From contig NZ_QTZO01000015.1 in assembly GCF_004025585.1 (NCBI RefSeq), positions 1-64,000 of the forward strand: a DNA stretch of 64,000 nucleotides. The letters run 5' to 3'. The notes beneath the pieces are model-generated. The model searched no databases and was not told the DNA's origin. It worked only from the letters and a program-made list of their open reading frames with translations. This DNA comes from Pseudodesulfovibrio sp. S3 (GTDB lineage: Bacteria > Desulfobacterota > Desulfovibrionia > Desulfovibrionales > Desulfovibrionaceae). Below, piece after piece: positions 7,596 through 11,182 of this stretch (position 1 is the first letter of the stretch; the number at the start of each line of letters is the position of its first letter). The position numbers were made by a program, and so were the translations under genes.

Positions 7596-7979
7596 TCACT
7601 TCAGACCGATGATGCCGCGCTGGCCGATGGTCTTGATGAAGGTGGTCACGGACAGTTCGGCCTCGCGGGGCTGGACCTCGTAGGCGTCGGTGAACTCCTG
7701 CGCGATCCGCCTGACCGACCGCACGCCGTCGATGCGCTGCCACACGAACGCCCCCATCTCATCCAGCTCCACCTGCTTGGTCATGGGCCTTTTATCCCAC
7801 ATGCCCACCTTCTCGGCCAGCCGTCCGAACCACGGCTTCACGGCCAGGGGGTAGGCGAGCCGCACCAGACCGTCGGGCAACGGAGTCTCAGACACCTCGG
7901 CATTCTTCACCGGGACCATTTCCAGGGCCTCGGTCCGGGATATGACCGGTTCAGGACGCTGTTTCCGAAACAAGGGCAT
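7596..7979 (-). CDS. PqqD-family peptide-binding protein
   Basis: The product is 127 residues. The C-terminal ~80 residues match the PqqD/RRE winged-helix fold: VELDEMGAFVWQRIDG, RSVRRIAQEFTDAY, then a helix of the sensing wing. Family members bind the leader peptide of a ribosomal peptide and present it to a radical-SAM or other modifying enzyme. No PQQ gene, radical-SAM enzyme or precursor peptide was found near it. It is the last gene of a three-gene minus-strand operon and its start lies inside the end of the preceding gene (29-nt overlap). GGGAG precedes the ATG. Confidence 0.85.
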   Translation of the reverse strand: MPLFRKQRPEPVISRTEALEMVPVKNAEVSETPLPDGLVRLAYPLAVKPWFGRLAEKVGMWDKRPMTKQVELDEMGAFVWQRIDGVRSVRRIAQEFTDAYEVQPREAELSVTTFIKTIGQRGIIGLK

Positions 7980-8880
7980 AACTCCCGCAGATGGCGTTGA
8001 ACACGGATTCGGGCGCAGGCACCGTGCCCTGCGCCGTCACTGACAAAATCGCGTTTCCCGGTTGGACCGCCCAGACCCGGCCGCTGGCGTGCACCTCACG
8101 GCGCAAGGCTCGCCGCAACAGGGAGGTCCTGACCGCACCACGCCATTCCACCCGGCCGGAATCTCCGGCCACAGCCATTTGAGGAGGAGGCGCATCCTCC
8201 ATGCCCTGCCGGACCCAATCGGCCAAGGGCAGGGATTTGAGCACGACCGAAGCCGGGGCGAACCGCTCAAAGATCAGACGGGTACCCGGTCCCTTGCCCG
8301 GAGGCACCCTGCCCGACATCCTGCCGGAAGCGGGCCGCCAGTAGACCACGCGGTAATGGCCGGGCTTGAAGGAAAAGGTGTCCAGGACAAACTCGGCAGG
8401 CACCCGGCCGGCCAGGCCGAACATGGCCCAGGGCACGGTCTTGCCGACGGAGTAATCCCGCAGGCTGGACAGGGTCTCTGCGGCAACGGATTCGTCCTCT
8501 TTGTCATCCACGAAGAACTGGACCAGACAGGCCATCCCGGAACCGGGATTGTGCAGGGCCGCCCCCAATCCCCGACTGCCGTCCTTTTTCCAGAGAAAGC
8601 TCCTGGCGCGCAGACCTGACCCGGCCAGGACGTCCACAGCGCGGGTCCAGGCAGGCGGCGTCTCGGTTTCGGGTACGCCGCGCACGGCTGCTTCCCGGTT
8701 GCCCTTGGTCAACCGCTTGATGTGTTTCTCAAAGGAAAAGGAACCCTGAACCCGATTCCACTTCAGTTCGCAGGCCATCCGCCCGGAACAGGCAAAGATC
8801 AGCCCGTCGCGCTCTATGACGGCAGGCTCCCACCCGCCCGGTGTGGTCAGGCCGACCCCGTTCCAGATGAACTCAGCCAT
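7951..8880 (-). CDS. Hypothetical protein coupled to PqqD-like gene
   Basis: The product is 309 residues with no signal peptide or membrane segment. It is rich in Trp and Arg and opens with MAEFIWNGVGLTTP, with a later short motif WKKDGSRGLGAA. I recognise no catalytic motif. Its stop overlaps the PqqD-like gene by 29 nt and its start is two bases after the stop of the secreted protein gene, so the three form one unit. A partner role for the PqqD-like protein is inferred from context only. Confidence 0.8.
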   Translation of the reverse strand: MAEFIWNGVGLTTPGGWEPAVIERDGLIFACSGRMACELKWNRVQGSFSFEKHIKRLTKGNREAAVRGVPETETPPAWTRAVDVLAGSGLRARSFLWKKDGSRGLGAALHNPGSGMACLVQFFVDDKEDESVAAETLSSLRDYSVGKTVPWAMFGLAGRVPAEFVLDTFSFKPGHYRVVYWRPASGRMSGRVPPGKGPGTRLIFERFAPASVVLKSLPLADWVRQGMEDAPPPQMAVAGDSGRVEWRGAVRTSLLRRALRREVHASGRVWAVQPGNAILSVTAQGTVPAPESVFNAICGSYALVSETAS

Positions 8881-8882
8881 GA

Positions 8883-9488
8883 TCAGCGGGGAACGTAGGC
8901 ATCCAGGGAGCGGATCTTGGTTCTGTGCTGTTTCCGTCCCGCACGGTCACTCTTGGACATATAGCATTGGTACTCTTCGTCCATGAGGGTTTTCTGGGTC
9001 ATCTTGATGGATACGCCGGGCCGGATATCCTGATCCCGGCTCCACATGAGCACCAGGGAAATCTCTTCATTCTTGTCGTTCTTGAACAGCCACTCCCAGG
9101 CAATGACGTTCTTGAAGGCGTCCCCCAGATACCTGTCCGGCTTGCCGAACAAGGTCAAATACTTGGAGTGCAGCTTGTCGAAGAGTTCCTGATCCATCTC
9201 GTAAAATTTGAGCTTGATGCGCACCAGCTTGCCCGGAGCCTTGCAGTTGCCGAAGGTCAGGCTGCCGCCGCGGACGCCGGCCATGGACTCTCCCTTGAGC
9301 AGCGCCTCAGTCAAAAAAGGGTCATCCGACACGGGTATGGCCTTGTCCAGATCGCACAGGTTCGCATACTCTTTGACATCAGCCCCAAGGGTAAACCCCG
9401 CGAGACTCTTGGGAAAACCGTCTGCGGCAAAGACCGAGGTCGCGAAAAACAGCACCAGGAAAAGAACCACCATACGCACTTTCATCAT
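8883..9488 (-). CDS. Secreted hypothetical protein
   Basis: The product is 201 residues with a clear Sec signal peptide (KVRMVVLFLVLFFATSVFA, cleavage after AFA near residue 22). The mature part has two cysteines that might pair (LCDL and GNCK) and a WEW motif, and ends with a basic tail. No known domain is recognised. It is the first gene of the operon with the 309-residue and PqqD-like proteins; GGAAG lies upstream. An in-frame ATG three bases later could equally be the start. Confidence 0.8.
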   Translation of the reverse strand: MMKVRMVVLFLVLFFATSVFAADGFPKSLAGFTLGADVKEYANLCDLDKAIPVSDDPFLTEALLKGESMAGVRGGSLTFGNCKAPGKLVRIKLKFYEMDQELFDKLHSKYLTLFGKPDRYLGDAFKNVIAWEWLFKNDKNEEISLVLMWSRDQDIRPGVSIKMTQKTLMDEEYQCYMSKSDRAGRKQHRTKIRSLDAYVPR

Positions 9489-9537: not shown

Positions 9538-9604
9538 CTGCCCTATGATTAAACGAGATTCCGCCACTTGGCAAAGGGATACGCAACGTAGAGGGAAGGA
9601 CGGA

Positions 9605-11182
9605 ATGCATATGAAATCGACCATGCCCGCATGGCGACCGCTGGCCTATTATATACTCGCCGTGGCAGGCGGGACCATCTACGGCGGCCAGGTCTGACCG
9701 CTCATGGTGCAGCTCCCGGTCTGGGAGCTCGGACTGATCATCCTCATTCCCTTGGCCATGGCGTTCGGGGGGCACGCCTTTCTTCAGCGCAAATGGGTGG
9801 ACGCGGCGCCGCCCATGGACCAGCCCACCTTCCAATTCAGGTTGGAACTGACACTGTTCACCGCTTCCGGGCTGCTCTCCGCATTGATACTCCTTTTTGG
9901 CTACCGCTATCCACTCTTTGAAAGCGGCCTGAAGCTGGTGCTCGGCATCTTTACGGTGGGATTATTCGCCGGACTGGACATGGCCCTGAAACGTGAACGG
10001 ATGATCATCCAAAAAGCCCAGGCAGGACAGGCAACCTATCTCCTGCCCAAGGAAACGACCCCCCTTACCCGCAAATTTTCCGTCCTGGCCTCCCTGATCC
10101 TGCTCCTGATCACGTCCATCATCCTTCTGGTCATCATCAGGGATGTGAACTGGCTGGCTGAACAGGCCCCGGACTTTGCCGCCATAGACATGCTCGGTCG
10201 CTCGGTGTTGACGGAAATCCTCTTTGTCATGGGCTTCCTGCTGGTCATGGTCATGAACCTGATCTTTGCCTATACCAAAAACCTGCGCATTCTTTTCGAC
10301 ATCCAGACCCGGATTCTGGAAAACGTGTCCAGAGGAGACCTGTCCCGGCGCGTGCCGGTAACCACTTCCGACGAGATGGGCGTCATCGCCGGGCACACCA
10401 ACATCATGATCAGCACCCTGCGGGAAGGAATGCGTATGCGCGAAGGACTGCTCATCGCCCAGGAAGTGCAGCAGCATTTTCTGCCCCGCCATCCGCCCGA
10501 GATGCCGGGCCTGGACATTGCCGGAACAAGCCTCTTCTCCGACGAGACGGGCGGCGATTTCTACGATTTCATCCAATGCGAGGCCGACAGTTGCGGCCAG
10601 TTGGCCATCGCCGTGGGCGACGTGTCCGGGCACGGCATCGGCGCCGCCCTGCTCATGACCGCCGGCCGTGCCGTCATCCGGCAGAATGCGGCCACCCCCG
10701 GATCGGCCACCGAAAACATCCGCCGGGCCAACAAACACCTGACCCGCGACATCGGCGACACGGGCCGGTTCATGACCCTGTTCTTCATGGTCGTGGACCC
10801 CGTAAACGTGCAGGCCACCTGGGTCAATGCGGGCCACCTGCCGCCCCAGTTCTACGACCCGGAAACGGACCGGTTCAGCGAACTCAAGGGCGAAGACATC
10901 CCCTTGGGCGTGGAGGCCGAATGGCATTACCACGAGCAGATCATGGATCTGCCCGGCCCAGGCCAAATCCTGCTCATCTCCACGGACGGGCTGTGGGAGG
11001 AACACAACCCCAATGGGGAGATGTTCGGCCGGGACCGCATCAGGGCGATCCTGCGGAACCACGCGAAAGAAAGCGCACAGGACATCCTGAAAAGCCTTTG
11101 TGACGCCGTCCGTGAATTCTCCGGCTCCGGCAGGCGGGAAGACGATCTGACTATTGTGGTGGTCAAGGGCGTGGAGCGGTGA
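9605..11182 (+). CDS. Membrane SpoIIE-type PP2C phosphatase with in-frame UGA
   Basis: Read through, the frame gives 525 residues. Codon 31 (9695-9697) is TGA, in the first membrane segment between GGTIYGGQV and PLMVQLPVWE. A strong ribosome site (GGAAGGA) and hydrophobic coding sequence precede it, while no good site precedes the next ATG at 9704, which would give a 492-residue product. Downstream come several more membrane segments, a HAMP-like linker (RILENVSRGDLSRRVP), and a PP2C/SpoIIE domain with GGDFYDF, VGDVSGHGIGAALLM and DGLWE metal-site motifs. Such enzymes dephosphorylate anti-sigma-factor antagonists. The UGA could be selenocysteine, a nonsense change of a Trp codon, or a sequence error; see the hairpin entry. 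Confidence 0.8.
9695..9732 (+). promoter_or_regulatory. Candidate bacterial SECIS element after in-frame UGA
   Basis: The in-frame TGA at 9695-9697 is followed by a perfect 7-bp stem, AGCTCCC (9711-9717) with GGGAGCT (9723-9729), closing a five-base loop GGTCT. The loop starts 20 nt after the UGA. The E. coli fdhF SECIS, from memory, also has GGUCU in its loop about 18 nt after the UGA, though with a bulged U that is absent here. The hairpin fits the general bacterial SECIS pattern. Chance is possible, since the stem also encodes ordinary residues. Confidence 0.35.

Follow-up and report, generated by a model that had tools for sequence, protein, structure and literature searches.

An In-Frame UGA in a Membrane Phosphatase Gene

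A gene for a SpoIIE-type phosphatase in Pseudodesulfovibrio sp. S3 carries a single in-frame UGA near its 5′ end, which raises the question of whether this codon terminates translation or specifies selenocysteine (Sec). The gene is located in a stretch of 64,000 nucleotides (contig NZ_QTZO01000015.1, positions 1 to 64,000, referred to here as the window) of a genome of 3.68 Mb. The frame from the ATG at 9605 has 30 codons, the in-frame TGA at 9695–9697 (codon 31), and another 494 codons up to the TGA at 11180–11182. These coordinates, and the hairpin distances given below, are exactly those of the original prediction. The features of the locus are as follows.

9596..9600, + strand: AAGGA, probable ribosome binding site (from the sequence)
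9605..11182, + strand: MASE10-HAMP-SpoIIE phosphatase gene, 525 amino acids with the UGA putatively read as Sec (open reading frame, Pfam, homologs, conserved upstream neighbors)
9650..10225, + strand: MASE10 membrane sensor domain, residues 16–207, holding the putative Sec codon (Pfam PF20970, E 5.3e-36; AlphaFold model)
9695..9697, + strand: putative Sec codon UGA, codon 31 (alignment of 148 distinct loci)
9711..9729, + strand: SECIS-like hairpin, 7-bp stem, loop GGUCU (sequence, conservation, pair covariation, synonymous constraint)
10316..10423, + strand: HAMP signal relay, residues 238–273 (Pfam PF00672, E 2.2e-4, 21.9 bits, under the curated cut-off of 25)
10595..11167, + strand: SpoIIE/PP2C-type phosphatase domain, residues 331–521 (Pfam PF07228, E 1.4e-44)

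The AAGGA segment upstream of ATG 9605 is a probable ribosome site, in line with the one that had been claimed. Two additional in-frame ATGs are present, at 9611 and 9623, and either could be the start instead. The 30 codons ahead of the UGA, described in the original prediction as hydrophobic, are indeed in frame, but they are not a mere leader, as this stretch is part of MASE10. The matches to MASE10 (124.7 bits against a curated cut-off of 27, profile positions 2–186 of 186) and to the phosphatase domain (152.8 bits against a cut-off of 25, positions 3–190 of 192) are nearly complete. For this gene, the list of open reading frames under translation table 11 has only 9704–11182, with the Sec form cut at the UGA. 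Gene calls that treat UGA as a stop thus place the start of the receptor past this codon, and the first transmembrane helix (TM1) is lost.

On the minus strand (7599–9488), head-to-head with the receptor gene, are genes for a 201-residue protein with a signal-like N-terminus, a 309-residue protein, and then a PqqD-like protein. Three of the five neighbors scanned with Pfam have a match (PqqD, FtsX, ABC transporter); the 201- and 309-residue proteins have none. These two genes are conserved upstream of the receptor in all 28 loci of the genus that were examined (L013–L040), in UGA and Cys forms alike, which indicates that the exchange between Sec and Cys occurs in place.

Codon 31 in Homologs

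The read-through protein was searched in 98 genomes, including that of the window. Matches at E ≤ 1e-100 were found in 39 of them, mostly carrying one in-frame TGA, and codon 31 in these aligned genes is TGA or TGC/TGT. The phylum yielded 148 distinct MASE10 loci, of which 97 have UGA at the aligned codon, 47 a Cys codon, three Ser and one Tyr; none has Trp. The alignment of homologs at this codon, proposed in the original prediction, therefore favors Sec, with UGA or Cys in 144 of the 148.

These loci were collected with our own profile (E ≤ 1e-4), with one kept for every different DNA sequence surrounding the codon. The count excludes exact duplicates, rows that are gapped at this column, and two truncated copies; of the copies, L065 is from the same gene as L129, and L108 is at a contig end and identical around the codon to L107. 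A partial domain in genome G824 and a match below the cut-off, with TAG, in G1024 are also not among the 148. Two Pseudodesulfovibrio loci (L042 and L043) are identical around the codon to L014 and L035, which are genes of relatives in the genus. In L129 (G005:C20:14300-16700) the MASE10 and phosphatase parts are in different frames, which is a frameshift or an assembly error. The one locus with Tyr (L139) scores below the family cut-off. Ser is found in L054 (TCC), L114 (AGT) and L128 (TCT), and a chalcogen is therefore not absolutely required; these three receptors may sense nothing or be tuned in another way.

In searches with the domain itself, MASE10 was found in 10 of 395 genomes of the phylum and 77 of 348 genomes of the order, as well as in 12 of 85 and 49 of 291 genomes of two further orders (11 and 48 of these over the curated cut-off). 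It is absent from all 14 control genomes searched.

Codons 15–30, upstream of the UGA, have a pN/pS of 0.295 in 19 UGA genes of the genus, a sign of purifying selection. One of the most conserved stretches of MASE10, the motif Y-G-G-x-V-[U/C]-P, extends across the UGA. By this comparison, the segments on both sides of the UGA are translated protein.

The UGA could instead be a true stop, ending a 30-residue leader, with translation restarting at the AUG at 9704 (codon 34) to give a 492-residue sensor without TM1 and the hairpin tuning the restart. An AUG is present 6 nt past the UGA in 17 of 19 UGA genes of the genus, that of the window included. However, it is replaced (by Leu, Ile or Val) in many UGA members outside the genus and in two inside it, there is no clear ribosome site ahead of AUG 9704, and in the Cys members the frame runs on uninterrupted at this point. 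A restart would also remove one of the most conserved motifs of MASE10. This arrangement is very unlikely, and AUG 9704 as the start of the main product was rejected, since its position is not conserved. When a long open frame holds a lone UGA, the usual cause is a nonsense change or an error, and a recent pseudogene or sequencing error in what was once TGG (Trp) or another sense codon had been rated at least as likely as Sec. For practical purposes this can be ruled out: 97 distinct loci, spread over many genera and independent assemblies, share the UGA, none of the 148 loci has Trp, and both sides are under purifying selection. A genome-wide reading of UGA as sense was also considered and rejected, as the gene itself ends in TGA and its homologs carry Cys.

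Selenocysteine Machinery

The genome of the window carries selA, selB, selD and a tRNA-Sec (anticodon TCA), so that the sel genes named for checking in the original prediction are all present. Its selD (L060, G000:C33:16572-17501) itself has an in-frame UGA, in the context MVKAAGUAAK. Across the order, selA matches are found in 280 of 348 genomes (276 over the cut-off) and in 76 of the 77 genomes with MASE10 (Fisher p 1.7e-7, with kinship ignored). The only MASE10 genome of the order without selA is 63% complete. The selA sampling covered a set of 79 genomes (78 positive) and the set of 348; MASE10 genomes of the two further orders were left out. In one relative from the genus, selA is split into two overlapping matches (G009:C50:17659-19025), which suggests a frameshift or an assembly error.

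The Hairpin Downstream of the UGA

The hairpin consists of the stem AGCTCCC (9711–9717), the loop GGTCT (9718–9722) and the arm GGGAGCT (9723–9729). The stem begins 13 nt and the loop 20 nt after the TGA. By itself the hairpin is weak evidence and is not rare in the window. Counting both strands, there are 2050 TGAs, and a perfect 7-bp hairpin is found at a similar distance past 24 of them (two of the 24 being the hairpin of 9711–9729 itself, read on the other strand). The case must therefore rest on homologs, and it is conservation across them that raises the hairpin far above chance.

A stem of at least 5 bp follows 96 of the 97 UGAs, and the loop starts 18, 22 or 24 nt from the UGA in 88 of the 97. 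Three types of hairpin can be distinguished: CUCCC-GGUCU-GGGAG, which is that of the window; GCCCCC-CGUGnnnCU-GGGGGC (loop CGUGnnnCU/UU); and GGCCU-CGGGU...-AGGCC (loop CGGGUnnnnnn). The best hairpin is weak in one UGA gene (L180, 4 bp) and oddly placed in two (L133 and L135). A stem of at least 5 bp is found somewhere in 34 of the 47 Cys genes, with scattered places and none fixed. The conservation of the hairpin, another point that the original prediction left to be compared, is thus seen in the UGA members, with no fixed place in the Cys members.

When synonymous codons were shuffled, the mean z-score was 1.74 for 51 UGA genes, compared to 0.36 for 37 Cys genes (Mann-Whitney p 1.6e-9, an optimistic value as the sequences are related). 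For single genes the result is marginal. The window gene alone has z = 2.2 (p = 0.055), and only one of the 51 UGA genes reaches p ≤ 0.01; all 51 z-scores are above zero. Two Cys genes match the scores of UGA genes (L033, z 3.1; L102, z 3.0).

Covariation was assessed in 22 hand-chosen UGA genes of the window type, and 90.9% of the cells are paired, compared to 87.2% in shuffles. Stem pair 21-31 covaries (CG 14, UA 6, GC 1, UG 1). It is the only one of the seven pairs that changes on both sides, which was equaled by 461 of 500 shuffles. The outermost pair is unpaired in 14 of the 22 sequences.

Synonymous diversity (pS) collapses at codons +5 to +11. It is 0.208 in 20 UGA genes of the genus, 0.236 in 44 UGA genes with the second hairpin type, and 0.219 in 16 UGA cyclases, with flanking values of 0.48–0.78 in the three groups. 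In eight Cys genes of the genus the same codons have a pS of 0.531, with no collapse. A separate codon test with 19 UGA genes of the genus gave a pS of 0.172, compared to 0.55–0.68. The collapse indicates a constraint at the nucleotide level exactly at the hairpin site, seen only where the codon is UGA. An Rfam scan of 9600–9800 gave four matches, all far under the gathering scores.

With the codon, the machinery and the hairpin considered together, the UGA at 9695–9697 almost certainly inserts Sec in the MASE10 sensor. This conclusion is drawn from comparison of sequences, and there is no peptide, 75Se or reporter evidence. A new selenoprotein with Sec in a membrane segment, as originally proposed, is supported to this extent, while selenium in the protein remains unproven.

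Structure and Position of Residue 31

An AlphaFold model of residues 1–282, produced from 77 sequences, has a mean pLDDT of 93.6. It contains six helices, covering residues 10–30, 39–66, 70–100, 104–142, 154–186 and 191–242. The loop with Sec has 0.08 Lys and Arg residues per sequence, compared to 4.95 in loop 2 and 6.40 in loop 4. This charge bias indicates that the Sec loop is outside. Together with the model, it puts Sec31 at the outer, periplasmic end of the first transmembrane helix.

The conserved columns close to Sec31 are Tyr26, Gly27 and Pro32; column 31 itself was fixed to Sec or Cys by the choice of rows for this alignment. Arg occupies position 57, on the inner side, in 94% of the sequences, and the window protein has His there. 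There is no second Cys conserved in more than 30% of the 77 aligned sequences, Cys115 being present in 30%. A disulfide-type switch with a resolving Cys is therefore unsupported by the alignment, and an intersubunit Sec-Sec bond is not excluded. A widely conserved His that could be a co-ligand was not found either, with His264 (near the HAMP end) in 55% and His15 in 34%.

No solved relative of the membrane part of MASE10 was found in structure and sequence searches of the Protein Data Bank. Foldseek gave no match at E ≤ 0.001. The best VIA-align match is to a designed helical pore, with a middling Z score of 8.3, and the rows for NarQ and a chemoreceptor begin near model residues 149–151; these matches to the predicted structure show no function. 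A profile search of the PDB sequences gave one histidine kinase entry, at profile positions 210–264, which is the HAMP end.

Output Domains and Exchange of Sec and Cys

The original prediction dealt with a single gene and missed a family that spans two kinds of output domain. Relatives join the Sec or Cys form of the MASE10 sensor to class III cyclases, and the Cys form to HD-GYP domains. All the loci were classed by output with small profiles of our own, and Pfam agreed for eight representatives. The Sec loci comprise 80 with SpoIIE, 16 with a class III cyclase and one fragment, and the Cys loci 18 with SpoIIE, 14 with a cyclase, 13 with HD-GYP and two fragments. The four remaining loci have HD-GYP (two) or a cyclase (two). 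None of the 15 HD-GYP forms has Sec, and Sec is present in 80 of the 98 SpoIIE members with a Sec or Cys codon. The output of L182 is a cyclase by Pfam.

Twelve changes of the Sec label are required on a tree of 90 loci, at least nine of them forced by well-supported branches; shuffled labels require 29.4. The tree includes 90 of the 91 loci then known (L130, a fragment, and loci found later were left out), and the direction of change is not fixed. By this phylogenetic inference, Sec and Cys forms have been traded repeatedly, and clearly many times.

Five genomes have one Sec and one Cys receptor each: G001 (L026, L077), G019 (L028, L076), G020 (L027, L072), G021 (L036, L073) and G920 (L144, L168). 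In four of them the Sec copy is a phosphatase and the Cys copy a cyclase, and in G920 both are phosphatases. In L019 (genome G002), a TGC is followed within 40 nt by an almost intact hairpin of the window type (GGCTCCCGGCCTGGGAGCT). Judging from its sequence, this looks like a recent replacement of Sec by Cys, with the hairpin not yet decayed.

A Possible Mechanism and the Role of Sec31

We consider it highly probable that the gene encodes a MASE10-HAMP-SpoIIE selenoprotein, for which the role of Sec31 is inferred and proof at the protein level is lacking. A six-helix membrane sensor, MASE10, would be joined through HAMP to a protein phosphatase of the SpoIIE/RsbU type. At UGA31 the ribosome would insert Sec by means of SelB and tRNA-Sec, under the direction of the hairpin that begins 13 nt further on; the evidence for this is comparative and not chemical. 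Sec31 may be a reactive or ligand-binding residue of the sensor, and its oxidation, or the capture of an electrophile or ligand, may shift the helices. HAMP would pass this shift on, changing the activity of the phosphatase (or cyclase). From what is known of RsbU and SpoIIE, the target of the phosphatase is probably a phosphorylated STAS-type anti-anti-sigma protein. Possible signals, also inferred, are an oxidant, sulfide or polysulfide, or an electrophile.

The broader proposal, that MASE10 is a class of sensors using a periplasm-facing Sec with no resolving Cys to detect an external redox, sulfur or electrophile signal, with at least two outputs and in at least three orders of the phylum, is only slightly favored.

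Sec may also be inserted for something other than signal detection, as a metal or cofactor ligand or as a structural contact in the membrane domain. The absence of a second conserved Cys, the repeated exchange of Sec and Cys, and the Ser in three loci are all consistent with such a role. However, Sec is kept in most SpoIIE members with a Sec or Cys codon, its motif is highly conserved within a sensor domain that is common to unrelated outputs, and a co-ligand His with wide conservation is lacking. A role outside signal detection is doubtful on balance, and a metal or cofactor ligand at Sec31 remains a live rival to a sensing residue.

In a further possibility, Sec would mainly limit the signaling protein to conditions of selenium availability, the residue itself being secondary. 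From known Sec decoding, scarce Sec-tRNA would be expected to cause early termination at codon 31. However, Sec and Cys have been swapped many times and the Cys-form genomes tested keep selA, which shows that such a gate is dispensable, and it is an improbable main function.

Comparison with Known Systems

By its mechanism of Sec insertion, the window protein is an ordinary selenoprotein. The loop of its hairpin, GGUCU at about 20 nt from the UGA, is also that of the E. coli fdhF SECIS. The two other MASE10 hairpin types differ from it, with the loops CGUGnnnCU/UU and CGGGUnnnnnn. The window protein shares the catalytic domain of the partner-switching phosphatases SpoIIE, RsbU and SiaA, although its match to these named proteins is under the cut-off. 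The sensors of those phosphatases differ from MASE10. The window protein and all eight UGA or Cys relatives scanned match nearly the whole of the Pfam MASE10 domain (PF20970). A text search of the literature for the name MASE10 returned only unrelated locus tags, and no described ligand was found.

An inventory of prokaryotic selenoproteins from May 2026 contains 119 families and subfamilies (PMC13188914). UGA/Cys exchange and a bacterial SECIS-type hairpin, which serve as criteria for such families, are also seen in the case of MASE10. Its Table 1 has no entry for MASE10, SpoIIE, HAMP or a nucleotide cyclase. Sec-Pro is found there in two motifs of unrelated families (UPGQ and DxxUP), and a putative regulatory protein, of the FmdB family, is among the named entries. 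The authors of the inventory consider that redox functions are served by most uncharacterized prokaryotic selenoproteins. Term searches of the accessible text of PMC13188914, PMC5029168, PMC8318568, PMC9312934 and PMC1794560 gave no such protein. Nine new families from deep-Sep have no match by name, and three of them are unnamed hypotheticals that cannot be excluded by name (PMC12013277). In NCBIfam release 20.0, which may not include every NF model of Table 1, nothing matches the MASE10 portion of the window protein; the matches obtained are to phosphatase, cyclase, kinase or HAMP-type models, far under the cut-off.

The nearest precedent in the literature searched is a fusion of a Sec-containing peroxiredoxin with PP2C_SIG (PLoS Genet 2008, PMC2398784). 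It also has a selenoprotein module and a PP2C-type phosphatase, distantly related to SpoIIE/RsbU, in one chain. There is one difference, however. The Sec part of the fusion is a known redox enzyme, whereas the Sec of the window protein would be in a transmembrane sensor domain. The open-licence literature, covered mostly at the level of listings, gave no account of Sec in MASE10, in SpoIIE receptors or in cyclases. Within the literature searched, the MASE10 Sec receptors are apparently an undescribed family of selenium-containing sensors.

One-piece membrane receptors that carry Sec in their sensing domain would bring selenium directly into bacterial signal transduction. For MASE10, which has no solved structure or described ligand that we could find, Sec31 provides a candidate active residue. 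The effect of replacing Sec by Cys, a change repeated within the family, becomes a question that can be tested. If the proposed sensing role is correct, this would be a selenoprotein family that receives a signal rather than one that catalyzes a redox reaction.
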